This document shows, piece after piece, positions 25,943 through 45,435 of a stretch of DNA of 64,000 nt. This DNA comes from Prochlorococcus sp. RS04 (lineage in GTDB: Bacteria; Cyanobacteriota; Cyanobacteriia; PCC-6307; Cyanobiaceae). The notes beneath the pieces are model-generated. The model saw nothing but the letters and a program-made list of their open reading frames with translations. It was not told the origin of the DNA and did no database searches. The DNA lies in assembly GCF_001989455.1 (NCBI RefSeq), contig NZ_CP018346.1, forward strand, positions 1,240,001-1,304,000, read 5' to 3'. The stretch's first letter is position 1, and the number at the start of each line of letters is the position of its first letter. The translations under genes were made by a program, and so were the position numbers.

Positions 25943-26295
25943 TTAGGATTTTCGCTAGTTATACCAATTAGTTTGGTCAGTAATCAACAATAATCAACAA
26001 TAATACGTATCGAATAATAATGTATAAATATGGGTTCTCTGCCAGCTACTCTGCGAGCCGCAACCCTTGCAAATAGGTTTTTAGGGTTTGGAAAGAAATC
26101 AAAATAGAAAAATTTAATGAATTAAAGATGCTTTCTTTATTAAGTCGAGAAAATCAGAATGATTTAATCAACATTTCTGAAATTTAAAATTGAAAGATAG
26201 TAAAAAGAAGATTTTTTAGATGATGATTTTAATGAAATAGATGCAAGATTAAAAGCAGGTTGTTATGTCCATTGCGGTCAAAGAAAGATATAATT
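25943..26295. other. Gene-free gap after tRNA-Ala with gene remnants
   Basis: This stretch has no intact gene. It starts with ATTAGG directly after the tRNA, a motif that recurs beside the third tRNA copy near 29843. At 26051-26058 it has ctgcgagc in a context that reappears at 29742-29749. A decayed reading frame fills 26081-26293. This looks like scarred DNA left by past insertions. Confidence 0.5.
26081..26293 (+). pseudogene. Remnant of a small coding sequence
   Basis: Two short protein-like stretches lie in different frames: KFNELKMLSLLSRENQNDL ending at 26187, and KEDFLDDDFNEIDARLKAG continuing to CYVHCGQRKI and a stop at 26293. They read like the two parts of one small hydrophilic protein broken by a frameshift. 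No family recognised, and no start codon is convincing, so decay is inferred. Confidence 0.35.
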
Positions 26296-27642: not shown

Positions 27643-28455
27643 CTAACTAAAAACTTTTGAGTAGAAACTTTTTAAATAAACCCTAAATTCACCAATTTTT
27701 CTTTTAATAAACATTTTTATTTTTGAAAGTATTGATTGTTTAAGATAATACCTAAGAGGTTTAACATCATTAATATCAATATAATAAAAAGGCTTAATAT
27801 TTAAATAATTTAAATGCTCTAGAGAAGCAAAAGGACTTCTAATTGAATAGTTCAATATCTGATCATAAAGAGATGAAAATTTAATGGCTTGTTCATAAGA
27901 GGAGATAAATAAAAAATCATGAAGTGACTCATAGTTATCAAAAGCTCTTGGAATACAAATAAATTTGTTAATTAAATCAGGCGTCAAATCAATTTTCTTA
28001 GTAAAAAATAAATCATATCTAAGTTGAATAACAAAATCATAATTAACATCAAATTTTTCTTTGTATTCTTTCATTAATCCGATAGATTTTTTTACACTTA
28101 GCCATCTACTATGAGTTTGCAAAATTAGTCTTTTTAACTTCTCAATACCACCTTGTTTTGAATACTTGTCAAAAATAGCCTTATAAGATTTATGATTCTG
28201 AATTTTATAATCTTTTAATGAGATATTTGAAAAATCTAATTGTTGTTCTACAAAAATAGATTTAGGTTTATATGTATTAATTATTTTTTCTTTCATATTA
28301 ACGGACCAAGAATGTGCAAAAAAGTCAATATCTAAATCCTTAAAAATCATTTTCTTATAATTTTTATAAGATTTATTTAAATTTAATTCCCTACCCTCTC
28401 CGTTACTACCTTTAGAACCCCCTGTCAAACCAAAAAGGCATACTGCAATTTTCAT
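27643..28455 (-). CDS. Putative glycosyltransferase-like surface protein
   Basis: This 270-residue protein starts MKIAVCLFGLTGGSKGSNGEG, then has an IDFFAHSWS segment and a YDFVIQLRYDLFFTKKIDL segment in the middle. That order (MKIAV.xFG, then H-T/S-W, then R.D.xF) is seen in poorly characterised glycosyltransferase-like proteins of capsule and LPS islands. The C-terminus is basic and could lie on the membrane. No certain family; the glycosyltransferase role is inferred from pattern and context. Confidence 0.5.
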   Translation of the reverse strand: MKIAVCLFGLTGGSKGSNGEGRELNLNKSYKNYKKMIFKDLDIDFFAHSWSVNMKEKIINTYKPKSIFVEQQLDFSNISLKDYKIQNHKSYKAIFDKYSKQGGIEKLKRLILQTHSRWLSVKKSIGLMKEYKEKFDVNYDFVIQLRYDLFFTKKIDLTPDLINKFICIPRAFDNYESLHDFLFISSYEQAIKFSSLYDQILNYSIRSPFASLEHLNYLNIKPFYYIDINDVKPLRYYLKQSILSKIKMFIKRKIGEFRVYLKSFYSKVFS

Positions 28456-28793: not shown

Positions 28794-29612
28794 GTGAGCA
28801 ATCCTTTAACTTTAAAACTTAAGAAAAAATACTATAGATATAAATTCAAATTAAATATTGCCAAAAATATCATTATTGAACAACCTTTTAACAAAGGGAT
28901 TAATTTAGGCGCTGGAAAGAATTGGAAGCAACTTAATTGGATAGGTATAGATAAATTAGATGGTAATTATTTAGATGACAAAAGTATATTACCTTTTAAG
29001 GATAAAAGTATTAAGTATGTTTATAGTTCTCATTTTTTTGAACATATTAATGATGAATGTGCAATAAATTTATTTCGTGAGATTAAGCGTGTTCTTATGG
29101 ATAATGGCCTTTTAAGAATAATAGTTCCAAATTTTGAATTACTTCATCAAAATCTAATAAATAATGATTCCACTCTAATGGAGTTAAGTGGATTTAAAGG
29201 AAGAACTGAGTGGCAGAAATTTGGTATAGAAAATAATAACACTAATAAAATCCTTCACTGGTTCGCAAGTTATTCAAATTACCAAGAAGAAAATATATTT
29301 GAGAACTGTCCAGAAGACTTATATAGAGGTCCACCAAAATTAAAAAAAGAGGAAGTACTTTCAGCAGCAAAAAATTTGACAACCCTGGAATTTGGTGAAT
29401 GGGCAATTTCTAAAATTAAAAAAAAATATATTAAAAATGGTGGTCATATAAATACTTGGACAACAAAAAAATTTATTGATCTCTTATTAGATGTTGGTAT
29501 AAAATCTAAACAAAAAAACTATGGCGATTCAGAATCCAAAGTTCTTGGCTTATTTGATTATTTAAATGATAGGAGTCAAATTTCTTTATGTCATGAGGGA
29601 TGTGTTGATTGA
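28794..29612 (+). CDS. Class I SAM-dependent methyltransferase
   Basis: This 272-residue protein has the type-11 methyltransferase layout: INLGAGKNWKQLNWIGID near residue 39 is the SAM motif, SILPFKDKSIKYVYSSHFFEHI is the family's acidic/His loop, and EIKRVLMDNGLLRIIVPN follows. A longer helical insert and a GHINTWTTKKF end are typical of O-antigen-locus members. The start is GTG at 28794; an upstream ATG is in another frame. It lies between the two partial tRNA copies, so it may be cargo of one inserted cassette. Substrate not predictable. Confidence 0.82.
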   Translation: MSNPLTLKLKKKYYRYKFKLNIAKNIIIEQPFNKGINLGAGKNWKQLNWIGIDKLDGNYLDDKSILPFKDKSIKYVYSSHFFEHINDECAINLFREIKRVLMDNGLLRIIVPNFELLHQNLINNDSTLMELSGFKGRTEWQKFGIENNNTNKILHWFASYSNYQEENIFENCPEDLYRGPPKLKKEEVLSAAKNLTTLEFGEWAISKIKKKYIKNGGHINTWTTKKFIDLLLDVGIKSKQKNYGDSESKVLGLFDYLNDRSQISLCHEGCVD

Positions 29613-29931: not shown

Positions 29932-31506
29932 CTATTTCAAGTTGTTTATATTTTTATATAGCATGCTTTTACCTAAAGAAAAAAGAAGTTCACTATATGG
30001 ATAATGATGAAGACCTGCTATGTTTAGATAAATTAGAGAAGTTAATAAATAAACTTTTCTTGAACTGTAAGTATTATTATTTAACCAATTATTAAAATAG
30101 TTTTCACATTGAACTAGATTAAATGTTCTGTTTAAGTCAAAATTTATATCATCATTAATCCAATTTATTGAGTATAGATTTTTCTCAATTATTTTGTGGT
30201 TAACTATCAAACCATGCATTAATTTAGCAAAATCATAATATCGATCACCACATTTAATATTAGATGCAAAATCCTGTCTCCAATCAAGGAAAATAAATTT
30301 TTTGCTTTTATCATCATATAAAATATTTTCAAGATGAAAGTCACCATGAAAATCAGATGGGATTCCTTCTGATAAATGATTCCAATCTAGCTCAAGGATA
30401 AGATCTTTAACTTTTGGAATCTTTTCTCCATTAATATATGTAATTGTATCTTTGTGATTAAATTTTTTAAAAAACAAATCTATTCTTTTTTCCGTTTTAA
30501 CTTTATAAAAGTCTAGGCACTTATTCTTGAAATTATTAAATTCGTCTTTGGATAGTTTTATATCTTTCCAAAAAATGGAAGATTCTTTAAGTAAATTTAT
30601 AAATTTTGGGATATTAACTTTATTAGAGAGAACTTCCCCATCTGCTTTTTTATATGCGTACATATTCTCAGAAACATCAGTAATATGTGGAATGAAATCT
30701 TTAATTATTTTAGACCTTTTAACTCTATTTTTAATAAATTCCTTATCATCAGAAAATTTTATAACTTTATCATTTACGAACCAGATACATTCATTCTCTT
30801 TTTCTAAAATTGTAGGACTTTCCCTAAGTTGAAAATATATTTTTGCCTTCTTAAGTGAATCCAAGTTACCTGTATCGTGCCAAGTAAATGGTATGGATTT
30901 AATGGGTGTTGTTTTTATCAAATTTTTAAGTGCGTATGACTCCCCTATTCTTATAGCTTCTTCTTTACCTTTAATCATTTGATCCCAAAATTCTTTTGGT
31001 TTATTTATTCCAGCAAGTCCAATATATGGAAAACAATCTTTATCTGTAACTTCCTTTTCACAAATATCAAATACTAATTTATCTTTAACTTTTAATGACC
31101 TGTATTGTTTATCATTTTCTAGATTTGAATAACCCATCCAATTACAATTAGGAGATGGAATATTTTCCTCAACTAATGTATCGCATGACATAAATATAAA
31201 AGGCTCATTTAAATAATTCCTACATTGAATTATTGAATAACCCAGACCGCTTCCATCGCCTTTATAGTTATCAACATCTACAAAAATAAATTTTCTACTG
31301 GGATAAGAAATTTGTAAAAATTGTTTTACAAGTTTACCTTTATAACCAAGTGCTATAACAAATACTGTATCTTCTGAAAACTTTTCAATTTGCCAAGATA
31401 AAATTGGTTTAAGATTTATGCTTATTAAGGATTTGTTTAAGTATTTAGTATATTTGTCTAGTCTTGAGCCTAAACCAGCAGTAGGGATTAGTACTTTATA
31501 TTTCAT
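29932..31506 (-). CDS. Nucleotidyltransferase-kinase fusion (sugar or choline-type activation)
   Basis: This 524-residue protein joins two activities. Residues 1 to about 225 form a nucleotidyltransferase (VLIPTAGLGSRLDKYTKYLNKSL; FMSCDTLVEENI; DTGNLDSLKKA). Residues 235-520 form an aminoglycoside/choline-kinase fold: HGD at 387, then N394, and LDWR near 407. All catalytic positions are kept. Pairs of this kind phosphorylate a small substrate and couple it to a nucleotide, as LicA/LicC do for choline and AmgK/MurU do for amino sugars. It ends the minus-strand operon, with the cupin 5 bp upstream. Substrate unknown; an anomeric sugar kinase plus NDP-sugar synthase is my preferred reading. Confidence 0.82.
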   Translation of the reverse strand: MKYKVLIPTAGLGSRLDKYTKYLNKSLISINLKPILSWQIEKFSEDTVFVIALGYKGKLVKQFLQISYPSRKFIFVDVDNYKGDGSGLGYSIIQCRNYLNEPFIFMSCDTLVEENIPSPNCNWMGYSNLENDKQYRSLKVKDKLVFDICEKEVTDKDCFPYIGLAGINKPKEFWDQMIKGKEEAIRIGESYALKNLIKTTPIKSIPFTWHDTGNLDSLKKAKIYFQLRESPTILEKENECIWFVNDKVIKFSDDKEFIKNRVKRSKIIKDFIPHITDVSENMYAYKKADGEVLSNKVNIPKFINLLKESSIFWKDIKLSKDEFNNFKNKCLDFYKVKTEKRIDLFFKKFNHKDTITYINGEKIPKVKDLILELDWNHLSEGIPSDFHGDFHLENILYDDKSKKFIFLDWRQDFASNIKCGDRYYDFAKLMHGLIVNHKIIEKNLYSINWINDDINFDLNRTFNLVQCENYFNNWLNNNTYSSRKVYLLTSLIYLNIAGLHHYPYSELLFSLGKSMLYKNINNLK

Positions 31507-31511
31507 ATTAT

Positions 31512-31853
31512 TTAAATTCTATTGTAATCATCTAAAATCCTAACGACGTCATCCATTTCTGGAGTACTTGCCTCTAGATAAACACTATCCTCAACACCTT
31601 CCATTCTATGAATTTGTCCTGGATTTAATGTGATTGATTCACCCTTTAGATAAATTTCAGAATCCAATTCATTTTCATTTTCACCTTTATAAATTCTAAG
31701 CTTTCCACTTAAGATATATATGGTTTCTTTTTTATAATTATGATATTGCAAGCTGCATTTTTTACCCGCATACATAGTTAATTTTTTCAGCATATATTTG
31801 TCATTGATTTCTAATACTTCTTCCTTGCCCCATGGCTTATTTATAATTTTCAT
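31512..31853 (-). CDS. Cupin, mannose-6-phosphate isomerase type II-like
   Basis: This 113-residue single cupin resembles the C-terminal isomerase domain of ManC: NKPWGKEEVLEI start, LQYHNYKKETIYILSG with the metal-binding His and Glu, GESITLNPGQIHRMEG. Compared with the full domain in the ManC at 58183 it is free-standing. It may isomerise or epimerise a sugar phosphate, or simply bind one. It lies 5 bp upstream of the nucleotidyltransferase-kinase gene in the same operon. Confidence 0.8.
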   Translation of the reverse strand: MKIINKPWGKEEVLEINDKYMLKKLTMYAGKKCSLQYHNYKKETIYILSGKLRIYKGENENELDSEIYLKGESITLNPGQIHRMEGVEDSVYLEASTPEMDDVVRILDDYNRI

Positions 31854-31937
31854 ATTTTTTTTTTAACTATATTAATAGTACTTCTCTGGTGTCTAGTTGA
31901 TTTTAAAATTTAAAATTTTATTATAATTTTATTAAAA

Positions 31938-32762
31938 TTAAATCTTATAATGTTCTAATTCTGGATGAAATTCGAAAAATTTATCATAGAAGTTTTTTAC
32001 GTATTGATTCATATCCCATCTGCTATTAAATCCATACTTTCTTTTGATCCATTTCTTACCTTCTTCTAAATACAACTTTCTATTCTCAAAAAAATCCTCT
32101 GTACGTATAAGATCTGATTTTTCAATTAAATAAGTTTCATTCTCTTCAGCAAAAACTTTTTTTGTAATTGCTGCTGCCCAATTGTTGACATATGCCTTAG
32201 CAATAATTTCACTTTCTGTAAAATATCCCCTAAAATTACTCCCATCAAATAAAAAATTTAAGTGATTAGGATTTTCTTTTTCAATTATCATTTCAATAAA
32301 TTTTCTTCTTAAAAGTAAAGCATTATTATGGATAAACCAAAAATATTTGGTTTGACAAGAGTTTAATAAACTAATTTCGCCCCAATTTTTAGAGGCAGGA
32401 GATAATATCCCAACCATTGGATGTTCTTCTAGAACATTTAATAAAGTTTTTATAGTTTCTAATGGATAGAGCTCTGTGTCATTTGTTAGTAAAAAGAAAG
32501 CTTCATATTTGTCCCAATTTTTCTCTTTAAATAGTTCAAGTAGTGCATAATTCATTCCCCGACCATATCGTAAACCATTCTTAATAGCTTCATTATTATT
32601 AATGTACCATGTACAATATTTAGATAATTTATCTTTATCAGAACCAGCTTCGATTACATAAGTGTCATTATAATTAGCATCATATTTCTTTAAATGCTCA
32701 TAAAGTGCATTAGTGGGATCAGGAAGATTCCTATTAAGAATTATCGTACAAATTCTTTTCAT
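31938..32762 (-). CDS. Glycosyltransferase, GT2-like
   Basis: This 274-residue protein has a GT-A-type start (CTIILNRNLPDPTNALYEHL), a region YEAFFLLTNDTELYPLE that would hold the metal-binding acidic pair, and a helical C-terminus. The order suits a family-2-like transferase that acts on an NDP or CMP sugar. No signal peptide. It lies 1 bp after the GatZ-like gene, so it is cotranscribed with sugar-precursor genes, and probably uses their product. Confidence 0.7.
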   Translation of the reverse strand: MKRICTIILNRNLPDPTNALYEHLKKYDANYNDTYVIEAGSDKDKLSKYCTWYINNNEAIKNGLRYGRGMNYALLELFKEKNWDKYEAFFLLTNDTELYPLETIKTLLNVLEEHPMVGILSPASKNWGEISLLNSCQTKYFWFIHNNALLLRRKFIEMIIEKENPNHLNFLFDGSNFRGYFTESEIIAKAYVNNWAAAITKKVFAEENETYLIEKSDLIRTEDFFENRKLYLEEGKKWIKRKYGFNSRWDMNQYVKNFYDKFFEFHPELEHYKI

Positions 32763-32763
32763 T

Positions 32764-33933
32764 TTATAGTACCATTCTAAAGTTTTTTAAGTATCTATAA
32801 ATAGACTTTTTAATCGCTTCTTTTAAATTAAGATCCAGATTTATACCCTTTGTGTCTAGGATATTATCGGCTTTATTTTTTATTTCAATGAATTCTGGCG
32901 TTGAGAAATTATAATGACCAGCTATTATCGCTTTTTCTCTATCAGTTGTTTTACTTCCTTTGATTATCCATTTATCCCATTTTCTAGAATCATAAGAAAG
33001 CCTCAAGAATTGACTAGCGATATTTTTAAGGCCATTATTTTCTAAAGTTTTTAAAAAGGCTTTAGTTTCTGTAACCCCAAATTCAGGAGCTACATTCGCA
33101 GAGTGAATTCCTAGTCTTGGATGCCAAGATAAAACTTCATCAGAAAGATAGTCGGCATTATGTTCTTTCATATAAATCTGATATTTCTTACATATATTAA
33201 TCATTTGAGGGATCTGAATTTCTGGGGGAATTTCTTTTTTAACCCTAAAAGGACTGTCCAAAGATCCAATATTTCTTAATTCTTTCACTTTTGTTCCTGT
33301 TTGGATAACGACAAATGTAGGTTTTGGGTATTTATTCTTTTCACAAAACTCATAAATTTTAGATAAGGTAAAGTGCAACTCTTCCTGACTGTTTGTGCTT
33401 CCAGTTTGTTCTTCAGTGCCTATTTCATAAATTATTTCCTTACCCTGTTTTTTTGCATAGTTACAACAAAAATCATATAGTTCAAATAACCTCTCTAAGC
33501 CTTCCTCAACACTTATAGGTCCATGTATATCAATACTTGGATCTAAATGTAAAATTTGAAAACCAGCATCAATATCAACTTTATATGATTTTTTTGCGGA
33601 TTCCATAGCCTCACGAAGTCCAAATCTCTCTTTTCTTTCAAGATCACTCTGCCAAGGGCCACCATGGTCTCTTGCAAGATAAGTTAATCCAAGTTTATCC
33701 TTATTAAATACATATTTTGAAAATTCTTCTGTAGACCAATTATTCACATAACCCCCCCCAAAATCTTCTGAATCTATTTGTCTCCTAGAGGCTATTAAAA
33801 TTAAGGGAATTTTTTCATGATTGCTTATTTCAATAACTGAATCAACACAATTCAATGACATTGGTCCAACTCCTAAAAGAGTAGAACATTTCTTCATATA
33901 GCTAATAAGCATTTCCTTGATCATATTGCCCAT
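32764..33933 (-). CDS. GatZ/KbaZ-like class II aldolase-family protein
   Basis: This 389-residue protein resembles GatZ/KbaZ, the larger, supposedly non-catalytic subunit of tagatose-1,6-bisphosphate aldolase. The matching stretches are PLILIASRRQID, then GGGYVNNWSTEEF, LARDHGGPWQSD, AGFQILHLDPSIDIHG and YEIGTEEQTGS. The catalytic partner GatY/KbaY is not in this window. Stand-alone members in polysaccharide islands may make or break a keto-sugar phosphate on their own. Its first 13 bp overlap the phosphatase gene, so the two act together. Role inferred. Confidence 0.75.
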   Translation of the reverse strand: MGNMIKEMLISYMKKCSTLLGVGPMSLNCVDSVIEISNHEKIPLILIASRRQIDSEDFGGGYVNNWSTEEFSKYVFNKDKLGLTYLARDHGGPWQSDLERKERFGLREAMESAKKSYKVDIDAGFQILHLDPSIDIHGPISVEEGLERLFELYDFCCNYAKKQGKEIIYEIGTEEQTGSTNSQEELHFTLSKIYEFCEKNKYPKPTFVVIQTGTKVKELRNIGSLDSPFRVKKEIPPEIQIPQMINICKKYQIYMKEHNADYLSDEVLSWHPRLGIHSANVAPEFGVTETKAFLKTLENNGLKNIASQFLRLSYDSRKWDKWIIKGSKTTDREKAIIAGHYNFSTPEFIEIKNKADNILDTKGINLDLNLKEAIKKSIYRYLKNFRMVL

Positions 33934-34448
33934 TCACCTGAAAACTTAACTTTATTATGGGGAAAATTTTTTGGGTTATAAGGCTTAAAAAACTTTTCTA
34001 GAATATGAAGGCATGCTTCAGCCACAGACCTGTCCCCACCTGATCTTTTAGTTACAAAATTGGCACTTTTTTTTGTAAAAGGATCACCATTTGAGGGTGC
34101 GATACTATATCTAACCTCTCTCATAACATAATGATCAAAAATACCGTCTCCCATATAAATAACATCATTGCAATTATAGTTATCTTTAATCCAATCAATT
34201 CTTTTAACAGTGCTTACAAGGTCAAGTTTAAATTTCATATCTTCTACTATTCTTTTTTGGGAGATTTTAAATCCTTTTTTATCGCCTGTTATAAATCTAA
34301 TATCAATGTAAGGTTTTAAAAGTGTAAGAGCATCATGGTCGTCAGGTCCAAAAACTTTTAATAATTTACCTTCCTCTGAGTAAAAAAAATCTCCAGATGT
34401 CATAACTCCATCTACATCAAGAAGAAATATTTTTGGTTTATTATTCAA
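33921..34448 (-). CDS. HAD phosphatase, KdsC-like
   Basis: This 175-residue HAD enzyme has the KdsC pattern: LDVDGVMTSGDFFYSEEG with the nucleophile Asp pair, the ITGDKKGFKI segment, and YMGDGIFDHYVM for the metal site. KdsC and the related 9-phosphate phosphatases remove phosphate from KDO-8-P or from nonulosonic acid 9-phosphates. It is the first gene of the minus operon and faces the NeuB-like gene across a shared promoter region, which supports a role as the phosphatase after the NeuB step. Confidence 0.82.
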   Translation of the reverse strand: MNNKPKIFLLDVDGVMTSGDFFYSEEGKLLKVFGPDDHDALTLLKPYIDIRFITGDKKGFKISQKRIVEDMKFKLDLVSTVKRIDWIKDNYNCNDVIYMGDGIFDHYVMREVRYSIAPSNGDPFTKKSANFVTKRSGGDRSVAEACLHILEKFFKPYNPKNFPHNKVKFSGEWAI

Positions 34449-34791
34449 ATTAATTAAAAATCTAAGATTTAAATTTATCTTATCATTTGTCGTTAACTGT
34501 TTTTATTTTACAAAAAAACCAGTTGAATTAATTTGTATCAATTAAAACAAATTTTTCAATTTTCAAATTATTTATCAAAAAGCTATGGCTGAATATTAAT
34601 AAAATATTTATTTTTTCGTTAACTTAATCAACATAATTTTGTATTTTGATAAGTGTTTTATAAATAAATGTCAACTTAAGTAGTTTTCAAAGAAGAGTTT
34701 AAGAAATCAATAATATCTTAACTTTAGTATGAATAAATTTTTTTTGTATATTTGGAATGATATATATAAATAAATAAATATTTGATTCAAA
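34449..34791. promoter_or_regulatory. Divergent promoter region between the two sugar operons
   Basis: This 343-bp AT-rich gap separates the minus operon (phosphatase first) and the plus operon (NeuB-like first). It must contain both promoters. I see many TATA-like stretches but no convincing pair of -35 and -10 boxes and no hairpin; AT bias makes matches unreliable. Shared control of the two operons is inferred from position. Confidence 0.5.
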
Positions 34792-36618
34792 ATGAAAATA
34801 AGCTTAATAGCAGAAATTGGCATAAATCATGATGGAGATTACGAAAAAGCAGTTTTTTTAATTAAAAATGCCGCTAGATCAGGAGCATCTTCAATTAAGT
34901 TTCAATACAGAAATTTACAAAGATGTTATTCCAATTCTTCAAGAGAAGAGATAGGTGACCAAATGATTAAATCAGAAATAATTAGAAATTATTTAACTCC
35001 AGATAAAATATTAAAACTTCTTCACTTTGCTAGAAAAATAGATTTAAAAGTTGGTATTAGTTTTTTTAATCTAGAAGATATAAATGATTTTAAAGAAATC
35101 AAGGAATTTGATTTTTTCAAGATTCCATCTGTAGAACTTTTAAATTTCAAATTAATTAAGAAATTGCTATCATTTGGCAAAGAATTATTAATATCTACTG
35201 GGTGTAATTCAGAGAGTGAAATTATAAGTTGCATTGATAGGTTTAAAGAATATAAAAATTGGAGGATGCTCCATTGCGTATCAAACTATCCTCTGAATTT
35301 AGTAAATAGTAAACTCGGCTATATAAAAAGATTAAAAGAATTGTCACAAAGAGGAGTTGGATATTCTAGTCATGATGAGAATTGGGAAAATTGTCTTATT
35401 GCTGCTACACTTGGTGCAGAAATTATTGAAAGACATATAACTTACGATAAATCTTCGTTTGGTTTAGATCATACAACCAGTTCAGATGTATACGAATTCA
35501 CTAAATTAAATAAATTTCTTCAATCATTACCAATAATATTGAAGGGGAATAATCCAAGGACATTAAATCAAGGTGAATTACTAAATAAACAAAATTTAGG
35601 GAGATCTTTATATGCAAAAAAAGATATCGAAATAGGGTCATATTTAAAACAAGAAGATTTAGAAGAATTAAGTCCCCAAACTGGTATAACAGTTAGGGAA
35701 TTTTTTAAATATGAAGATCAAAAAGTGCTTAGATCTATTAAAAAAGGAGAAGTTATTGAAAAAAGCCATTTTGATAATCCATATTTTTTATCAAAAGAAT
35801 TAAAATACAAAGCAAATAAAACAAAATTATCACTGCCTGTGAGGCTTCATGATTTTATCAATATAAATGATCAATTTAATTTAGAAAACTACGAATTTCA
35901 CTTATCTTATAAAGAAGTTTTAACGGGAAATTTGTGTGCGAATAATTATCCTAATGATAAAAAATACAGTATACACTTACCAGACTATATCGATTCTTCC
36001 AACATAATTGATCCTTTTTCAAATAAAGAATATATCTCAGGTAAGAGTAATGAAATTCTGGAAAAGGTTATTAAATTTGCGAATGATTTGCAAGAAAGAA
36101 CTAACGCTTTAGTACCCATAATTGGTAGTTTTAGTAAATGCGAAACTTCCAAAGAAATATTTTATGAAAATCATAAAAATCTTATTGAAAAACATGAAAA
36201 CCTTGATTGCAAATTATTACCTCAATGGCTCCCTCCAATTGCTTGGTATTTTGGCGGTTCAGTATCTTTAAATGTCTTTAATAATAAGGATGATATTGAA
36301 CTCTTAAAACAATTTTCAATTAACATTTGTTTGGATATATGCCACTTTGGAATGGGTTTTGCTGCTAACAACTTGACTAAGGAATCATTTGAAGATCTTT
36401 TTACATTAGCAGGACATATACACCTAGCAGATTCAATTGGCATAGATGGAGAAGGAATCCAAATTGGTAAAGGGGATGAGGAAAATAAATATTTCTTAAA
36501 AAAATCATTAAACTCCGAACTGACTAAAGTAATAGAAGTTTGGCAAGGCCATCTAAATTCCTACAGGGGTTTTCATGATGCAATAAAATATTCATTAAAT
36601 ATGGCTAATAATGAATAA
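34792..36618 (+). CDS. NeuB-like synthase fused to a SAF domain and a sugar-isomerase-like TIM barrel
   Basis: The first 250 residues are a sialic-acid/nonulosonic-acid synthase: AEIGINHDGDY, SIKFQ, FFKIPSVEL, HCVSNYPL, GYSSHDENW and IERHITYD, which condenses PEP with a 6-carbon sugar. Residues about 275-335 form the antifreeze-like SAF domain (RSLYAKKDIEIGSYLKQEDL). The last 270 residues form a xylose-isomerase-like barrel (ICLDICHFGMGFA, HIHLADS, GEGIQIGKGDEE). Normal NeuB has about 340 residues, so the extra domain is a fusion that could supply or modify the substrate. The gene is first in the plus operon and overlaps the next by 8 bp. Confidence 0.88.
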   Translation: MKISLIAEIGINHDGDYEKAVFLIKNAARSGASSIKFQYRNLQRCYSNSSREEIGDQMIKSEIIRNYLTPDKILKLLHFARKIDLKVGISFFNLEDINDFKEIKEFDFFKIPSVELLNFKLIKKLLSFGKELLISTGCNSESEIISCIDRFKEYKNWRMLHCVSNYPLNLVNSKLGYIKRLKELSQRGVGYSSHDENWENCLIAATLGAEIIERHITYDKSSFGLDHTTSSDVYEFTKLNKFLQSLPIILKGNNPRTLNQGELLNKQNLGRSLYAKKDIEIGSYLKQEDLEELSPQTGITVREFFKYEDQKVLRSIKKGEVIEKSHFDNPYFLSKELKYKANKTKLSLPVRLHDFININDQFNLENYEFHLSYKEVLTGNLCANNYPNDKKYSIHLPDYIDSSNIIDPFSNKEYISGKSNEILEKVIKFANDLQERTNALVPIIGSFSKCETSKEIFYENHKNLIEKHENLDCKLLPQWLPPIAWYFGGSVSLNVFNNKDDIELLKQFSINICLDICHFGMGFAANNLTKESFEDLFTLAGHIHLADSIGIDGEGIQIGKGDEENKYFLKKSLNSELTKVIEVWQGHLNSYRGFHDAIKYSLNMANNE

Positions 36619-37636
36619 AACGATTTTTATTACTGGTGTAAATGGACAAGATGGATCCTTACTTGCGGATTTTTTTGTTAAGAGTGGAGATAATGTAATT
36701 GGCACATTTAGAAGAGGAACTCAACCAAAATTTTGGCGACTTGAAGAATTAAATATCGTAAATAAAATCAAATGTATAGGATTAGATCTAGGGGATTCAC
36801 TCTCACTTTTAAAAGAACTTGATGATTGCAATCCTGATCAGATTTATCATTTAGCTGGAGATAGCTTTGTAGCTGACTCTTATAAAAATCCTAAATCTTC
36901 CTTAGAAAATAGCGTAGAACATACAATAAATTTACTAGAAGCCATGAGATATCGAAAATCTAAATCCTGGTGTTTTATACCTTCAAGTTCCGAAATTTTT
37001 GCAGGAAATAAAAAAGATTTGTTAACTGAAGATGATTACCCTATATCTATGAGTCCCTATGGTTTATCTAAGTTAGTAAATTTACAGATTTCTGAAATGT
37101 ACAGAAAAATTTACAATTTAAGAATAGCTTCAGGAATTTTATTTAATCATGAGAGTGCCCTAAGATCAAGAAGTTTTGTAACAAGAAAAATCACATACAA
37201 TCTTGCAAAAATAAAAATTAGTTCAGGCCCCCCCATGTTATTAGGTAATTTAAATACATCCAGGGATTGGAGTAGTGCAGAAGATTTTGTAAAAGGCATG
37301 GCAGAACTAGGAGAGAAAAATAAAGTCGGTTCATTTATTTTTTCTTCAAATAAATTAACAACCTTAAGAGAATTTATTGGACTTGCATGCGAGGCTGCAG
37401 ACTTTGATGTTTTTTTTGAAGGAAATGGATTACAAGAAAAAGTTATACATAAGCAGACTGGGAATATATTGTGTAAGGTATCAGAAAATTATTTTAGGAT
37501 TTCAGATACAAAAGGAAAGATTGGTTCTAACAAAAAATTAAAATCTGAAATCAACTGGGAGCCTAGATATAAAATTAAAGAGTTAGTAAGTAAGATGGTA
37601 AAAACTGATATTGAGAGAAGATTAAATGAAAACTAA
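36611..37636 (+). CDS. NDP-sugar dehydratase, GDP-mannose 4,6-dehydratase-like
   Basis: This 341-residue extended SDR shows ITGVNGQDGSLLADFF at the NAD(P) site, SSSEIF and YGLSK in the active site, and LFNHESALRSRSFVTRKIT, a stretch shared with Gmd. It differs clearly from the canonical gmd at 60609, for example SALRSRS in place of SPRRGET, so it is a second, divergent member with perhaps another substrate. It overlaps the genes on both sides (8 and 11 bp), and so is translationally coupled to the NeuB-like and DapA-like genes. Confidence 0.82.
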   Translation: MNKTIFITGVNGQDGSLLADFFVKSGDNVIGTFRRGTQPKFWRLEELNIVNKIKCIGLDLGDSLSLLKELDDCNPDQIYHLAGDSFVADSYKNPKSSLENSVEHTINLLEAMRYRKSKSWCFIPSSSEIFAGNKKDLLTEDDYPISMSPYGLSKLVNLQISEMYRKIYNLRIASGILFNHESALRSRSFVTRKITYNLAKIKISSGPPMLLGNLNTSRDWSSAEDFVKGMAELGEKNKVGSFIFSSNKLTTLREFIGLACEAADFDVFFEGNGLQEKVIHKQTGNILCKVSENYFRISDTKGKIGSNKKLKSEINWEPRYKIKELVSKMVKTDIERRLNEN

Positions 37637-38582
37637 CTTATTAAGTGATTTGAAAGAATCTTTAGATGGTCCTATTTTTACTATTTTTACTCCATACAAA
37701 GAAGATTTTTCAATAGATTATTTTTCAATTGAAAAATACATAAATTTTTTATTTGAAGGAGGAGCAAAAGTTTTTTATGTAATGGCTTATAATTCTAGAT
37801 ATTCACAACTGAGTAACAAAGAGATTATTGATCTTAATAATTTTTGCATTAAATGTGTTAAAAAATTAGATAAAAAAAACATCATAATAGTTGCAGATCC
37901 AATTCATTGCTCTACTCAAGAATCAATAAAATTTTCTTTATCTGCTAAAGAAAATGGAGGTGACGCAATTTCCTTAATAATGAGAGAAAAATATTTCTCA
38001 GATGACCAAGTACTTGAACATTTCTATTTAATTGGAGAACATACTAATTTTCCTATAATTATCCATGAAATGCCGTTCTTATCTGGTTATGATGGTAAAC
38101 AGATTAATTGGCCAAAGAGTTTAATTTTACGCCTAGAAGAATTAAATAATATCTTAGCTATTAAAGAAGATGCAAAAAATATAGAAATATCTAAGTTAGT
38201 TCTTAGTTGTGAACCAAATATAAGAACAATATTTGCAGGAACAAAGAAAACTTTTTTACCTCTAAAAAAATATGGTTTAAAAAGTTATTTAAATGGAATT
38301 TCAATAATTAATCCTCGCATTGGAATTAAATTTTGGGAATTCTGGAAAGATAATGATTTCAGTGGAATGAACTGGATAATAGAAAATCTAGAAAATCCTT
38401 TTTTTGAAGGTCCAGTGTCTAAGTTTGGATGGCATAGATGTAATAAGGCCATTCTTCAAGCATCCGGACATATGCATAGAAGAGATCGCATGCCAATGCC
38501 CACTTTAAAAAGAGAAGAATTTAAAGAAATAGAACTTATCTATGAAACAATTAAAAACAATATTGACGATTTATTTTCTTAA
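37626..38582 (+). CDS. DapA/NanA-family lyase with altered active site
   Basis: This 318-residue protein belongs to the dihydrodipicolinate synthase / N-acetylneuraminate lyase family. The Schiff-base lysine is kept: K180 in ILAIKEDAKN. The conserved catalytic tyrosine of the YNxP motif is replaced by His147 (IIIHEMP), and the GTTGE-type loop reads YNSRYSQL. Thus it probably binds an alpha-keto acid but need not catalyse the normal reaction. It starts inside the end of the dehydratase gene. In context it may act on a nonulosonic-acid-like sugar. Confidence 0.82.
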   Translation: MKTNLLSDLKESLDGPIFTIFTPYKEDFSIDYFSIEKYINFLFEGGAKVFYVMAYNSRYSQLSNKEIIDLNNFCIKCVKKLDKKNIIIVADPIHCSTQESIKFSLSAKENGGDAISLIMREKYFSDDQVLEHFYLIGEHTNFPIIIHEMPFLSGYDGKQINWPKSLILRLEELNNILAIKEDAKNIEISKLVLSCEPNIRTIFAGTKKTFLPLKKYGLKSYLNGISIINPRIGIKFWEFWKDNDFSGMNWIIENLENPFFEGPVSKFGWHRCNKAILQASGHMHRRDRMPMPTLKREEFKEIELIYETIKNNIDDLFS

Positions 38583-38620
38583 AATGTAATTTATTTATAT
38601 ATTAGTTTTTAAAAATTGTT

Positions 38621-39328
38621 TTGCAAAAAATAGCATTTATACCTGCAAGGTCAGGTTCAAAAAGATTTCCCGATAAAAACATAGCTAAACTAAACGGTAA
38701 ACCCTTAATAGTATGGGCTGTAGAAGAATTTTTAGCTACTAATTGCTTCGATAAAATAATTTTTTCTTCTGACTCAGAAAACTACTTTAAAGTACTTAAG
38801 GATTTTATAAATTCTGATTTACTTGTTTTCCATAAAAGAAGTGAAAAAGAAGCTGGAGATAAAATAAAAATATTTGATTATGTAAAAGATAATATATATA
38901 ATTGGTGTTCTAATGATGATTTATTTGTTTTAGGATTGCCAACTTGCCCCTTTAGAAAAGCAATTCACATTAAAGAATGTATAAATTTATCTCTTAAAGC
39001 AAATAAATCAGTTTTCTCTTCTTGCGAGTACGACTTTCATGTTCAATTTGCTTTTTCCCCAAGATTTCAAAAAGATCAAATCATCGGCTGGGATTCCCCC
39101 TTTTCTAATTCGCCATTATTAACGGGTAATACTAGGAGTCAAGATCAAACCTCATATTTACACCCAAATGGTGCGATTTATGTTATTAAACCTAATCTAA
39201 TTAAAGAAGAAACTAAAACTTTTTACGAAAATTCTTTACCTTATATTATGACAAGAAGTGAATCAATAGATATAGATGCAAAAGAAGATTTAGAGATAGC
39301 TGAAATTTATTCAAAAAAATACGAATAA
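38621..39328 (+). CDS. CMP-sugar synthetase (CMP-N-acylneuraminate cytidylyltransferase-like)
   Basis: This 235-residue enzyme carries the family signature IPARSGSKRFPDKNI right at the N-terminus and a LGLPTCPFR segment that replaces the usual QPTSP. It activates a keto-sugar acid with CTP. The start is TTG at 38621 (MQKIAFIPAR). The end, DIDAKEDLEIAE, is also normal for NeuA/PseF/LegF. It follows the DapA-like gene by 38 bp. The activated sugar cannot be named from sequence; a nonulosonic acid or KDN-like sugar fits. Confidence 0.88.
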   Translation: MQKIAFIPARSGSKRFPDKNIAKLNGKPLIVWAVEEFLATNCFDKIIFSSDSENYFKVLKDFINSDLLVFHKRSEKEAGDKIKIFDYVKDNIYNWCSNDDLFVLGLPTCPFRKAIHIKECINLSLKANKSVFSSCEYDFHVQFAFSPRFQKDQIIGWDSPFSNSPLLTGNTRSQDQTSYLHPNGAIYVIKPNLIKEETKTFYENSLPYIMTRSESIDIDAKEDLEIAEIYSKKYE

Positions 39329-39517
39329 ATTTAAAAAAATTATGCTGAAATCTACCAAAAAGTTTTTAAAAGAATTTTAAGCTCTTAGCCTCAAAAAATT
39401 AAAATTAAAAATAGCTTTAAATATATTTTTTATTTACTTATCACATAATTCTGTGATTATTGCAATTTAAAAATTCCAAATATACATTATAATGAATCAG
39501 TTTTTAAATTTAGGAAA

Positions 39518-40228
39518 TTGGAATTTCATCTCCATGGATTAAGTTTTGAGGAAATTTCATACCAACTTCTTATTGATGGATATTCAGTTATCAAGCCAGA
39601 TTTCTCTAGGAATCTCTTAAATTTTCTTCCAGATCTTAAATCAAATACAGAGGAATTCATTTCGTCTTCAACTAAATATAATGATGATGAGTATGAGGGG
39701 GGGTTATATAAGATAATAACAAAAAAAAATTTAACCAATCCAAATTATAAGGTATTTAGAATTTACAATGAATTTTGTCTGAGTTTCATGAAAGCATTAA
39801 ATATAAATAACCATGAATTCAATTCAATGTATCAAACAATAGATACAAAAAAAACTAAACATATTGCTCAAAAACCTCATTTTGACAGGCTACCAGCGCT
39901 TAAATTTATGCTTTATTTGAATAATTTAAATTCTGATAATGGTGCATTTAAATTATCTAAAGGAAGCCATCATTGGGTTAAAAAAAAATTACCTAATAAT
40001 CGGCCAAAATTTGAATCAAAAGAATATTTAGAATACAGCAGGAATTTACCCAAATATATATTAAATGGTCTTAATCCCATTGAAGGAGATGCTGGAACCA
40101 TAATTATTTTCTATACAGACTGCGTTCATCATCAAGGGTTAGTTAATAAAGGTAATTGTCAAATATTAAGGTCGCATTATTGGAAAAAAACTACTTTCTA
40201 CGATAAATTAAAAAGAAAAATAATCTAA
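39518..40228 (+). CDS. PhyH-type Fe(II)/2-oxoglutarate oxygenase
   Basis: This 236-residue protein has the phytanoyl-CoA dioxygenase layout: the iron-binding HFD in QKPHFDRLP, then SKGSHHW, and DCVHHQG with the second His near 205, followed by LRSHYW. The start is TTG at 39518. It may hydroxylate a sugar or lipid. It lies between the CMP-sugar synthetase and the ABC exporter. Confidence 0.75.
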   Translation: MEFHLHGLSFEEISYQLLIDGYSVIKPDFSRNLLNFLPDLKSNTEEFISSSTKYNDDEYEGGLYKIITKKNLTNPNYKVFRIYNEFCLSFMKALNINNHEFNSMYQTIDTKKTKHIAQKPHFDRLPALKFMLYLNNLNSDNGAFKLSKGSHHWVKKKLPNNRPKFESKEYLEYSRNLPKYILNGLNPIEGDAGTIIIFYTDCVHHQGLVNKGNCQILRSHYWKKTTFYDKLKRKII

Positions 40229-40247
40229 GTTATTTTTAAATTATTAA

Positions 40248-42005
40248 ATGTCTAAAAAAAATTTTCAATACATTAAAAGATTTTGGAAATTTTTTAGTAA
40301 AAGAAGAAAAAAACAATTCTTTTTTGCTATTTTTTTAATGTTTTCTAGTTCCCTAGCAGACCTGATCTCTTTGAGTACTGCACTTCCATTTTTCTACATT
40401 ACCATTTCAAATAAAGAAGGATTGAGAGATAATCAAGTATTAAGATTCATATATGATTTTTTTAATCTAAACAATTCTAATCAATTAGTTATTCTAACTT
40501 CCTTTTTTTTTGCATCAACTGTAATTTTATCGTTATTTATCAAGATCCTAAATATTAAATATAGTCAAAAACTATCTGCTTATCTAGTTAACGATTTAAG
40601 TAGTAAAGCATATTTTAATGTCCTTTCACAATCATATGAATTCCATATAAGAACAAACAGCAGTGATTTAATTGCCAGAATTGTAAACTTTTCTGATAAG
40701 ACAGGAATAGTTTTTAATCAAACACTATATTTTTTAAGTTCAATAGTGACTTCCATTGGACTTTTTAGCGCCTTTTTGATAGTAAATTGGAAGATTGCAT
40801 TTTTTTCAATATCTTTTATATGTTTTATTTATTTTTTTCTAATTTATTTCTTAAAAGGAAGAGTTAGCAAAATAAGTAAATTAGTCTCTGAAATTACAAC
40901 TTATACTTTTAAAAATATCCAAGAAGGAATTGGATCAATAAGAGAAGTTATCTTAGGAGATTTACAAAACGTATATGTAGATGCCTATAGAAAACCTAAT
41001 TTAAATTTAAGGTATAGCAGAAATAGACTTGAATTCTGGAAAATAATACCAAAGTTTGGAATAGAGGCTTTTCTTCTATTAGGTGTAACTATTTTTACTC
41101 TTATTTTTTCTCTTTATATTCAAAATCCCAATCCGAATCTTATTATTCCAGTACTAGGCTTTATAGCTTTAGGATTTCAAAGATTACTGCCTAATTTACA
41201 ACAAATTTATTTTTCATGGCTCACAATTACTGGAGATAAAGAAGTGGTTAATAGATTTCTCGACTTGGTAGAGCTTGAACCAAATGTGATAAATAAAAAA
41301 TATAAAAAAAACATTTTTAATAAAAGTGCTGATATAAATATTGAAAATTTATATTTTAGGTATTTAAATTCCGAAAAAGAAGTCATAAGGAATCTAAAAT
41401 TACAAATTAAATCTAAGGAAAAAGTCGCTTTTATAGGGAAAAGTGGCTGTGGTAAAAGTACATTACTTGATTTAATTATGGGTTTACTTAAACCTTCTAT
41501 TGGTAGAATTTTAGTAAATGGTATAGATATTAATAAAAGAAATATGATTAATCAATGGAGATCATCTATTGCCCATGTTCCTCAAAATATTTTCTTAACT
41601 GACACTTCAATAATTGAAAATATTGCATTGGGAATTACAAAATCGGAAATTGACTACGACAAGGTAAAGAGAGTCTGTGAAACAGCACAAATACAAGAAT
41701 TCATTGAATCTACAGAATTTGGATACGAAACTATTATAGGTGAAAGAGGTATAAGCTTAAGTGGAGGCCAGCGGCAAAGAATAGGCATAGCGAGAGCTTT
41801 ATACAAAGCGTCATCGATACTAATATTGGATGAGGCGACAAGTGCTCTAGATAATTTAACTGAGAAAAAGGTAATAGAAGCAATCTTTTCTACAAGTAAA
41901 GATTTAACTGTAATTCTTGTAGCGCATAGACTTTCCACAGTAAAATATTGTGATAAAGTTATCCGAATATCAGAAGGTAAAATTGAAGAATCCTATAAAC
42001 CATAA
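40248..42005 (+). CDS. ABC transporter, fused membrane and ATPase domains (MsbA/PglK-like)
   Basis: This 585-residue half transporter has six membrane spans in the first 330 residues and a complete ATPase domain: Walker A GKSGCGKST, signature LSGGQRQRIGIARAL, Walker B ILILDEATSALD and the AHRLST switch. Such exporters flip lipid A or lipid-linked oligosaccharides. It follows the PhyH gene by 19 bp. It may be the flippase of the cluster, because no Wzx was seen. Confidence 0.9.
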   Translation: MSKKNFQYIKRFWKFFSKRRKKQFFFAIFLMFSSSLADLISLSTALPFFYITISNKEGLRDNQVLRFIYDFFNLNNSNQLVILTSFFFASTVILSLFIKILNIKYSQKLSAYLVNDLSSKAYFNVLSQSYEFHIRTNSSDLIARIVNFSDKTGIVFNQTLYFLSSIVTSIGLFSAFLIVNWKIAFFSISFICFIYFFLIYFLKGRVSKISKLVSEITTYTFKNIQEGIGSIREVILGDLQNVYVDAYRKPNLNLRYSRNRLEFWKIIPKFGIEAFLLLGVTIFTLIFSLYIQNPNPNLIIPVLGFIALGFQRLLPNLQQIYFSWLTITGDKEVVNRFLDLVELEPNVINKKYKKNIFNKSADINIENLYFRYLNSEKEVIRNLKLQIKSKEKVAFIGKSGCGKSTLLDLIMGLLKPSIGRILVNGIDINKRNMINQWRSSIAHVPQNIFLTDTSIIENIALGITKSEIDYDKVKRVCETAQIQEFIESTEFGYETIIGERGISLSGGQRQRIGIARALYKASSILILDEATSALDNLTEKKVIEAIFSTSKDLTVILVAHRLSTVKYCDKVIRISEGKIEESYKP

Positions 42006-42042
42006 AATATTTTTTTGATATTTGATAATTAATAATTTTTAA

Positions 42043-43473
42043 ATGGATAAGAATTTAAAAAAATTTGAAAAATTAGAAAATACTTTAATACTTGATTCAG
42101 AAAAATTTTTCTTATGTTTTTGGTGGGAGGGAATTAGATATAGAGTTTTCGAAGAAATTAGAAATCAAAAAAATAATGAAATTAAAAAAGATAATATAAA
42201 ACAAAGAAGAATAACTAGTTTTTTTAAAAAATGTATTAGGACCATCAGATTAATTTTATTAATAAAAGAAAAGTTTCCTTTTTTTTCAAAAAGAAAAAAT
42301 ATTTTTATCTTTTCTAATAATAGAAGAACTAGATTTCAAAATTATTATATTGATATTTATGCTGATCCTTTTATAGAAATTTTGCCTGAAAATTATGACT
42401 ATTCTTTTTTTGAGGGCACATTTAATGGATATCATGGATTACCCCCCAAAAAATATAATATTTTCTATTTAGACTATTTTATTATTTTTTCCAAGATTAT
42501 TGGAAAAATTATAAGACCATTTATTTTTTTAAATAAAAATAAATTAATTTTCAAATTAAAAAACGAACTAAAAAAATCATTTGGCAAAGACTACTCTATT
42601 TTGCAAAAAATAAAAATTCATATTGTTAATTGGCACTTACTATATTTCTTATATTACTTACTTCTATATTTTAAAAAACCTCTCCAAATTTTTGTGGTGG
42701 ATAGCCAAGCCTTTCAACCATTAGTATTTGCAGCTAAGAAATTAAAAATTCCTGTACTTGAATTACAACATGGTAGTCCATTTAGAGGAAAACTTAATTA
42801 TGACTACTCGAGTGGTGTAAGGCATTCTTCCTTTCCTGACTGGTTTTTATGTTTTAGTAAGTTTTGGAAAAATGATTTAGAAAAATTATTACCTATAAAA
42901 TCTGAAAAAATTTTATGCTTTGGTTTTCCTTATATAAATTCTATATATGTAAAAAAGTTAAATAAAAAATCAGAGTTTCATGAATTAAAGAATAAGAAAG
43001 TAATTCTAATTTTATCTCAACCGACCGTAGCGAACGAACTTATAGATTTTACAATTAAATTAAGAGAGAATATTGATAAAGACATAAAAATCATATTTAA
43101 ACCTCATCCATTTGAATATAAAAGTAAAGAAAACATTTTACATAAATTGAGCTTAAAATCGATCATAATTCCGAAAGAGACAACAAGTCTTTCAGAAATC
43201 TTTGCAATCTCTAACTGCCAATTAGGGGTGTATTCAACGGCTATATATGAAGGCTTAAATTTTGGTTTAAAAACATATATTTTAAATATTGCTAGATCAG
43301 AATATATGTCAAAAATAATTGAATTAGGATATGCAAAATTAGTTTCTGATCCTAGAGATATTATTAATGATTTTTTAATGAATCCAAAATCAGATTCCAA
43401 TAAACCAGATTTTTTTTCAACAATAGAGGGTAACGAAATGATTTCATATGTATTGTCAAAAATAAATAATTAA
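42043..43473 (+). CDS. Putative GT-B glycosyltransferase, polysialyltransferase-like
   Basis: This 476-residue protein has a basic N-terminal half and a C-terminal half with VLELQHGSPFRG near 240, ILCFGFPY, KIIFKPHPFEYK and QLGVYSTAIYEGL. The HP motif and the S/T-rich loop before the acidic residue are typical of GT-B enzymes of capsule loci that use CMP-sugar donors and of CDP-glycerol-type transferases. In this position it may transfer the CMP-activated sugar made by the preceding genes. It is an inference, not a firm family assignment. Confidence 0.6.
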   Translation: MDKNLKKFEKLENTLILDSEKFFLCFWWEGIRYRVFEEIRNQKNNEIKKDNIKQRRITSFFKKCIRTIRLILLIKEKFPFFSKRKNIFIFSNNRRTRFQNYYIDIYADPFIEILPENYDYSFFEGTFNGYHGLPPKKYNIFYLDYFIIFSKIIGKIIRPFIFLNKNKLIFKLKNELKKSFGKDYSILQKIKIHIVNWHLLYFLYYLLLYFKKPLQIFVVDSQAFQPLVFAAKKLKIPVLELQHGSPFRGKLNYDYSSGVRHSSFPDWFLCFSKFWKNDLEKLLPIKSEKILCFGFPYINSIYVKKLNKKSEFHELKNKKVILILSQPTVANELIDFTIKLRENIDKDIKIIFKPHPFEYKSKENILHKLSLKSIIIPKETTSLSEIFAISNCQLGVYSTAIYEGLNFGLKTYILNIARSEYMSKIIELGYAKLVSDPRDIINDFLMNPKSDSNKPDFFSTIEGNEMISYVLSKINN

Positions 43474-43677: not shown

Positions 43678-45435
43678 TTGAATGAGATTAATCACCAAAC
43701 TCAAATATCTAATGTACTAGTAATTGGTTGTGGGGGAGCTGGTTTAAGAGCTGCTATAGAGGTTAAGAAAAATGGCCTTGATGTTTGTATCCTTGGTAAA
43801 AGACCTAAGACAGATGCACATACCGTTTTAGCAGCAGGAGGAATTAATGCTGCTTTGGGGAATTTAGATAAAGATGATTCATGGCAACATCATTTTACAG
43901 ATACATACTTAGAAGGTTATGGAATTGGAGACCCCTCAAAAATTGAGATAATGGCTAAAGAAGCTCCAAATGTTGTAAAGGAAATTGATTCTTGGGGTGC
44001 AAACTTGGCAAAATTAAAAGACGGTAACCTAGATCAAAGATTTTTCGGTGCTCACAAATATCGAAGGACTTGTTACTCTGGAGACTTTACAGGATTATCA
44101 ATATTAAAAACACTCCTAAGGAAAGCTGATGATTTAAAAATTCCTATTTATGATAATCAATATGTCACAGAACTATTAATAAAAGAAAGTATTTGCTTTG
44201 GTGCGATGTCATTTAATATTTCTACATCTGAAAGAACAGTAAACTTGGCTGATGCAGTTATTTTATGTACTGGAGGTCACACTAGAATATGGAAAAAAAG
44301 TTCATCCCGAAAAAACGAAAATACAGGAGATGGATATTATTTAGCCTTAAAAGCTGGATGCGAATTAATAGATATGGAAATGGTACAGTTTCATCCCTCG
44401 GGAATGGTTCTACCAGAAGAAATTGAAGGGACATTGGTAACTGAGGCAGTTAGAGGCGAAGGTGGGAAACTATTAAATAATAAAGGAGAAAGATTTATGA
44501 AAAATTATGATATCTCAAGGATGGAATTATCAACGAGGGATAAAGTAGCAGTTGCTAACTACAAGGAAATTATAGAAGGAAGAGGAACAAAAAATGGAGG
44601 CGTTTTTCTTGATATAAGCCATAAAAGTAAAGAATTTATTATTGAGAAAATACCAACTATTTATAGACAATTTCTTGAAACTCAAATGCTTGATATCTCA
44701 AAATATCCAATGGAAGTTGCCCCAACTGCTCATTATTCTATGGGAGGTATAAAAGTTAATCCTTATAATCTTGCTACTTCAGTAGAAGGTTTATATGCTG
44801 CAGGAGAAGTTGCAGGAGGTCTTCATGGGGCAAACCGCTTAGGTGGTAATTCTCTTGCCGAAATTCTTATTTTTGGCAAACGAGCTGGTTTTGCAGCTGT
44901 AGAATACTCTAGGAAATTAAATCAACAAGTCAGATCAGGAAAAGCTATTTTAATCGCACATCAAAATATCAATAAATATATAAAAAGAGGTAAAGAATTA
45001 GTTAGACCACTTCAGCATGAATTACGCCTAATAATGTGGAAGAATTGTGGCGTTATAAAGAACCAAGAATTACTCTCAGAGGGTTTAGAAAAAATTAAAC
45101 TTCTTAAAAGTAAAATCAATGATACCGATGTAAGGATTGATATACATAATTGCGAAGATTTAACTTTAATTTTTGATCTTCAATCTTCTTTAAAAAGCGC
45201 TGAAGCAACCATAATTTCTGCTATGCAAAGAAATGAAAGTAGAGGAGCTCATCAAAGGAGTGATTTTCCACAAACTGATCCCAATTTTGAATTAAATTGT
45301 ATAGTTAGAATGTCTAATAATGAAGATGAACTAATTATTTCGAAAGTCCCCAAAAAGAAGTTAAGAAAAAACCTCCAAAAAATTGTACAAAAAACAACTA
45401 AAATTGAGGATTTTAAAAATAAATTACTTGAATGA
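43678..45435 (+). CDS. sdhA: Succinate dehydrogenase/fumarate reductase-type flavoprotein
   Basis: This 585-residue FAD protein has the full SdhA/FrdA set: VIGCGGAGLRAA, the FAD-histidine region HTVLAAGGINAALGN, FHPSGM, RGEGGKLLN, APTAHYSMGGI and GLHGANRLGGNSLAEI. It oxidises succinate or reduces fumarate. L-aspartate oxidase is related but shorter. The iron-sulfur partner SdhB is not next to it. The start is TTG at 43678. A core respiratory enzyme in a surface-sugar island is notable and suggests an old core gene flanked by insertions. Confidence 0.85.
   Translation: MNEINHQTQISNVLVIGCGGAGLRAAIEVKKNGLDVCILGKRPKTDAHTVLAAGGINAALGNLDKDDSWQHHFTDTYLEGYGIGDPSKIEIMAKEAPNVVKEIDSWGANLAKLKDGNLDQRFFGAHKYRRTCYSGDFTGLSILKTLLRKADDLKIPIYDNQYVTELLIKESICFGAMSFNISTSERTVNLADAVILCTGGHTRIWKKSSSRKNENTGDGYYLALKAGCELIDMEMVQFHPSGMVLPEEIEGTLVTEAVRGEGGKLLNNKGERFMKNYDISRMELSTRDKVAVANYKEIIEGRGTKNGGVFLDISHKSKEFIIEKIPTIYRQFLETQMLDISKYPMEVAPTAHYSMGGIKVNPYNLATSVEGLYAAGEVAGGLHGANRLGGNSLAEILIFGKRAGFAAVEYSRKLNQQVRSGKAILIAHQNINKYIKRGKELVRPLQHELRLIMWKNCGVIKNQELLSEGLEKIKLLKSKINDTDVRIDIHNCEDLTLIFDLQSSLKSAEATIISAMQRNESRGAHQRSDFPQTDPNFELNCIVRMSNNEDELIISKVPKKKLRKNLQKIVQKTTKIEDFKNKLLE

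Follow-up and report, generated by a model that had tools for sequence, protein, structure and literature searches.

We analysed a 64,000-nucleotide stretch of DNA (the window; G000:C1:1240001-1304000) from the 1.66 Mb single-contig genome of Prochlorococcus sp. RS04, in which two divergent operons at window positions 29932–43473 had initially been annotated as one pathway to an unusual nonulosonic-acid-like sugar. Comparison with other genomes revealed that the cluster consists of two neighbouring, independently conserved modules, and that a single pathway is unsupported. Our preferred reading, to which we assign a probability of about 0.55, is that two separate sugar-donor modules abut at the divergent gap within a surface-glycan island, with the left and right chemistry proposed below.

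The left module, encoded on the minus strand, comprises a KdsC-like HAD phosphatase (PHOS, 175 amino acids, 33921–34448), a GatZ/KbaZ-like protein predicted to be a metal-dependent ketose-phosphate epimerase (GATZ, 389 amino acids, 32764–33933), a GT-A-fold glycosyltransferase without a Pfam match (GT, 274 amino acids, 31938–32762), a cupin of the mannose-6-phosphate isomerase C-terminal family (CUP, 113 amino acids, 31512–31853; PF01050, 4.4e-11) and an RmlA/LicC/MurU-fold nucleotidyltransferase (NTase) fused to an APH-like kinase (NTK, 524 amino acids, 29932–31506). A scan of genome contigs with the single GATZ sequence gave no match. Scanning 84,980 species with a profile built on a two-sequence GATZ alignment located 40 loci with a GATZ relative (35–63% identity) in about 12 phyla, which is a lower bound since only two short peptide patterns were used. 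When all window genes were searched by tblastn within 7 kb of GATZ at these 40 loci, PHOS and CUP were each recovered at 36, NTK at 35 and GT at 30, and the next most frequent gene family outside the cassette occurred at only 7, well below the cassette genes. The search also added a gene lying beyond the initially annotated coordinates, an S-adenosylmethionine (SAM) methyltransferase with a Methyltransf_14 C-terminus by Pfam (MT1, 384 amino acids, 26296–27450, minus strand), which is displaced in the window and whose homologue stands directly after NTK or close by at 21 of the 40 loci. Genes of the right module were rare in the same intervals (the synthase NEUB once, the CMP-synthetase NEUA once, the DapA-like DAPA and the fused TIM domain never), so the proposal that PHOS, GATZ, GT, the cupin and NTK belong to the NeuB pathway finds no support. 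The gene set is kept despite rearrangement in other Prochlorococcus genomes, NTK standing ahead of PHOS-GATZ-GT-CUP in G237 and an NTK-CUP pair lying on the opposite strand in G251.

The right module, on the plus strand, begins with a NeuB-SAF-TIM-barrel fusion (NEUB, 608 amino acids, 34792–36618; PF03102 at 1.4e-42, PF08666 and a C-terminal xylose-isomerase-like TIM domain, PF01261), followed by a GMD-like short-chain dehydrogenase/reductase (GMD, 341 amino acids, 36611–37636; PF16363 at 1e-75; TIGR01472 at 222.6 bits, cut-off 415), a DapA/NanA-like protein (DAPA, 318 amino acids, 37626–38582; PF00701 at 3.5e-21) and a PseF-like CMP-sugar synthetase (NEUA, 235 amino acids, 38621–39328; CTP_transf_3 at 8.7e-19). 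The PF03102 match places NEUB among the phosphoenolpyruvate (PEP)-condensing synthases of the NeuB family; the curated cut-offs of NeuB_NnaB (174.9 against 399.65 bits), PseI (145.6 against 340.25) and, for NEUA, PseF (TIGR03584; 117 against 205.7) were not reached. As in the legionaminic, pseudaminic and Neu5Ac pathways, a NeuB-family synthase is combined with a CMP-synthetase, but no aminotransferase, acetyltransferase or hydrolysing epimerase is present among the open reading frames (ORFs) at 26000–47000, and the DapA-like protein and the fused TIM barrel are extra. These results bear out the earlier view that the right operon is a nonulosonate-type module outside the standard sialic, pseudaminic, legionaminic and 3-deoxy-D-manno-octulosonic acid (KDO) sets, marked by its fused isomerase-like domain and altered DapA-like enzyme. 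A NeuB domain fused to an adapter enzyme is also found in Leptospira (PMC3438082), where the partner is a phosphatase; here it is an isomerase-like TIM barrel, and the right module has no phosphatase.

The order of the right operon was likewise upheld, since all four genes recur in the same order in the gammaproteobacterium G433 (identities 48/41, 42, 54 and 46%, respectively). A version that lacks the GMD-like gene, consisting of NEUB, DAPA and NEUA, recurs in Marinomonas and in two other Prochlorococcus genomes, G177 (NEUA 61% identical) and G007 (NEUA on the opposite strand). Relatives of the NeuB fusion align over both domains in seven other genomes, and in the eight fusions compared both NeuB motifs and the typical TIM metal-ligand motifs are invariant; those of G177, Marinomonas, Ensifer and others have a longer N-terminus, with a CBS-like stretch by NCBIfam in G177. 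The Schiff-base lysine of the DapA-like protein (in IKEDA) is kept in all five aligned sequences, and the position of the catalytic tyrosine, which in such DapA/NanA enzymes lies within a YNxP motif, appears to be taken by histidine (HEMPF; placed by motif, not by structure). DAPA itself is rare: 3 of the 266 Prochlorococcus genomes have it, as does a single gammaproteobacterium out of 274, not counting the Marinomonas that served as centre. The available stretches of G177, G007, G108 and Ensifer, two of them short, showed no PHOS relative. The right module probably makes a CMP-activated nonulosonic-type, unusual sialic-acid-like acid.

Conserved neighbourhood, suggested initially as a check on the cluster, was thus confirmed for the left and right sets each but rarely for the joint set, NEUB accompanying GATZ at 1 of 40 loci. 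Among 266 Prochlorococcus genomes, 8 carry GATZ, 3 carry DAPA and 1 carries both (chance probability of at least one, 0.09), a test weakened by the many incomplete genomes; the NeuB fusion is present in 2 of 12 cassette genomes. Because the cassette and the right module recur apart and their overlap in Prochlorococcus is at chance level, we read them as separate donor pathways. The trio of NeuB, phosphatase and CMP-synthetase noted earlier is most likely two modules meeting at the divergent gap, other copies of the right module lacking the phosphatase.

All ORFs initially named were recovered by ORF and profile checks at their coordinates, strands and families, and since the gene sets are conserved across phyla, chance ORFs are excluded. 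The first three right genes overlap each other by 8–11 bases, and left genes are separated by 1–84 bases or overlap (13 bases for PHOS and GATZ). The divergent gap between the operons measures 343 bases, in which promoter-like sites were not commoner than in shuffled sequence. Glycan genes are abundant across 26–43 kb of the window, where G+C is 24–30%, compared with 30–43% left of 26 kb.

The predicted structure of GT (AlphaFold pLDDT 92.7) adopts the GT-A fold, with SpsA, TarP and WrtF as top Foldseek matches (E about 3e-7). The N-domain of NTK (pLDDT 92.9) is of the UGPase/LicC/MurU type, and its kinase half carries the APH (Brenner) motif HGDFHLEN...DWR, with a Pfam APH match above cut-off in the relative at L034. 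NTK resembles FKP (PMC11982464), AmgK-MurU and HddA-HddC in the logic by which a free or partly dephosphorylated sugar is converted to the sugar-1-phosphate and on to the nucleoside diphosphate (NDP)-sugar, and its NTase fold is MurU-like; it differs from FKP and HddA in kinase class (theirs is GHMP), and here kinase and NTase are fused and the upstream epimerase is of the GatZ type. LicC and PntC rank level with UGPases among the best structural matches of the NTase half (VIA Z about 25), which would also suit a cassette making a CDP-activated alcohol or polyol by LicA/LicC-like logic instead of an NDP-sugar. We consider this alternative unlikely, as the cassette has a GT-A enzyme in place of a LicD-like transferase and GATZ and the cupin indicate sugar chemistry.

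GATZ is a distant relative of GatZ/KbaZ, matching structure 2fiq by profile (E=6e-7) and falling below the cut-offs of both PF08013 (1.1e-5; 24.7 bits, cut-off 26.7) and TIGR02810 (20.4 bits, cut-off 568.8). E. coli GatZ and KbaZ are 4-epimerases converting fructose-6-phosphate to tagatose-6-phosphate, with a site predicted by modelling to hold zinc by two histidines and one glutamate beside a catalytic aspartate (PMC11907403). By motif alignment, with GatZ residues numbered as in that paper, GATZ shares with them the TIM-barrel family and the Asp-His, Glu and His motifs of this metal site. Among 34 members of the cassette family D89, H90, E175 and H258 are invariant, and E174 is kept in 32; the E. 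coli enzymes serve galactitol/GalNAc catabolism, whereas GATZ sits in a biosynthetic cassette. Across that family the motifs RDHGGP and KEHNxDY do not vary, and GTEE hardly does. The closest relatives outside the cassette (36–38%) lie in fructose-type phosphotransferase system (PTS) operons with Fsa, transaldolase, transketolase or HAD genes in Enterococcus, Listeria, Klebsiella and Pantoea, a context that fits ketose-phosphate chemistry; these operons (L075, L076, L077 and L080) likely represent undescribed ketose catabolism.

GATZ could instead act on a keto-acid sugar phosphate, as an aldolase or an epimerase (e.g. a 4-epimerase of a 3-deoxy-2-keto acid), leading to a new acid product. Such a role would explain the KdsC-type partner at most loci and the arginine pair (R50 invariant, R51 near-invariant), and tagaturonate/fructuronate epimerase, related in sequence by a weak match, acts on acids. 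We nevertheless find it improbable, since most of the motifs are also carried by the PTS-linked relatives, which form a separate clade, phosphatases other than KdsC also stand beside GATZ, and such acids need no NTase-kinase for activation.

PHOS matches KdsC structures by profile (E=5e-19) and scores below the cut-offs of TIGR01670 (63.9 bits, cut-off 106.95) and KDN-9-PPhBT (58.6 bits, cut-off 180). Three HAD families occur beside GATZ: the KdsC type at most loci, a PNKP-like type in a marine phage, and a GmhB-like type, judged by eye, before GATZ at one Pelagibacteraceae locus. This swapping of phosphatase types argues for simple dephosphorylation as one step of the pathway. A role of PHOS in KDO synthesis was ruled out, as TIGR01362 (the KDO8P synthase KdsA) had no match in G000 at E<=1e-3, the control matching in 9 of 14 genomes.

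Under the preferred reading of two separate modules, GATZ would catalyse a metal-dependent retro-aldol/aldol epimerisation of a ketose phosphate, most likely between fructose-6-phosphate and a stereoisomer, the product of which CUP may isomerise and PHOS would dephosphorylate. The kinase half of NTK would then phosphorylate this free sugar, with the anomeric position as the probable site, its NTase half would form the NDP-sugar, and GT would transfer the activated sugar, with MT1 putatively methylating sugar or glycan. In the right module, the NeuB domain would condense PEP with a sugar supplied with the help of the fused TIM-barrel isomerase and the GMD-like enzyme, the DapA-like protein may act on a pyruvate-derived intermediate, and the CMP-synthetase would activate the acid, exporter and transferase genes coming next.

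Several points weigh against this scheme. Gene content, families and the separate conservation of the modules were observed directly, as were the GT and NTK folds in predicted structures, but we infer every reaction, reaction order and substrate. The NTase fold does not discriminate among CDP-, UDP-, GDP- and dTDP-sugars or between a sugar-1-phosphate and a phospho-alcohol, and the kinase half of NTK has no significant PDB profile match and was scarcely covered by VIA. The substrate-pocket glutamate of GatZ is isoleucine in GATZ, which has an additional SRRQ motif, so its substrate may differ and the C4/fructose-6-phosphate assignment may be wrong. Finally, Marinomonas carries both modules within 10 kb, or about 13 kb with four common neighbours, which suggests that the two modules may serve one glycan or polymer, or even yield a joint product. 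The least probable of the alternatives, in which GATZ and the cupin make an aldose phosphate that NeuB condenses with PEP before PHOS dephosphorylates and NeuA activates the acid, draws on this single stretch, on the divergent adjacency in the window and on the KdsC-like character of PHOS (KdsC relatives act on keto-sugar-acid phosphates), but was rejected as the main explanation because the modules are conserved separately, the cassette nearly always without NeuB and with an activating enzyme and GT of its own, the right module elsewhere without PHOS.

The four neighbours in the Marinomonas stretch are relatives of the ABC exporter (40248–42005, plus strand; PF00005, PF00664; predicted glycan export), of a PhyH-like oxygenase (39518–40228, plus strand; PF05721 at 4e-6; 30% identity), a possible tailoring gene, and of two genes whose 43% relatives lie between the Marinomonas modules, one without a family assignment (27643–28455, minus strand) and one a SAM methyltransferase (28794–29612, plus strand). 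The right operon continues in the window to a GT-B/CDP-glycerol-transferase-like predicted transferase (Glyphos_transf, 42043–43473, plus strand; PF04464 at 3e-6). A flavoprotein of the succinate dehydrogenase/fumarate reductase type (43678–45435) also lies within the glycan island, and at its left edge a protein (23946–25769) has an N-terminal repeat, GQDAIIWEKYK, present three times.

In the GATZ tree the PTS-linked relatives branch off with full support, phylum labels are intermixed and most inner branches are weak, a pattern that makes transfer likely without proving it. A scan of viral contigs with GATZ gave no match, but tblastn against phages found one tailed marine phage, Marine virus AG-345-E15 (MH319741.1; L116:7317-10489), with overlapping HAD-cupin-NTK-GATZ genes amid other glycan genes (NTK 37%, GATZ 31%; the HAD PNKP-like, not KdsC-like, by Pfam). 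In Enterococcus phage 9183 (L117:5645-7620), an NTK-like protein (22%) comes after a small HAD of the PNKP-like type, next to thymidylate and dUTPase genes. A Sinorhizobium plasmid (L074:10064-13540) has a run of genes for a GATZ relative (41%), a cupin, a DegT aminotransferase and a HAD hydrolase, a possible amino-sugar variant; PHOS-type phosphatases and DapA-like proteins were not found on plasmids at E<=1e-20. At L035, L044 and L067, PHOS-GATZ adjoins a divergent NTK and a long cupin, then a shikimate-dehydrogenase-like gene, and at L099 (Prochlorococcus G158) a divergent GATZ (32%) lies near a cupin, and the opposite strand carries an NTK (49%). A search of E. coli genomes with the Marinomonas cassette, aimed at borrowing a known O-antigen structure, returned no match, and a search of the open-access literature for the cassette, for the NeuB fusion and for surface-sugar genes of the GatZ type yielded no description of either module. 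Tentatively, and with considerable doubt, the left cassette may be a widespread pathway, its core taken up by phages, in which a GatZ-type ketose-phosphate epimerase leads to an NDP-activated rare sugar; this could be an NDP-ketose or the corresponding aldose isomer, a class of donor without an established origin in bacteria.

The split into two modules corrects how such clusters are annotated and assayed. If the proposed chemistry is true, a six-gene cassette in about 12 phyla would mark an undescribed surface sugar and supply the genes of its donor pathway, a fringe family of GatZ-like proteins would gain a biosynthetic role, and the right module would add a nonulosonate-type synthase that carries an isomerase-like domain of its own by fusion, together with an altered DapA-like enzyme. 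A fructose transferase is named in work on C. jejuni HS1 (PMC7901785), and a route to a ketose donor would bear on where the donor of that enzyme comes from.

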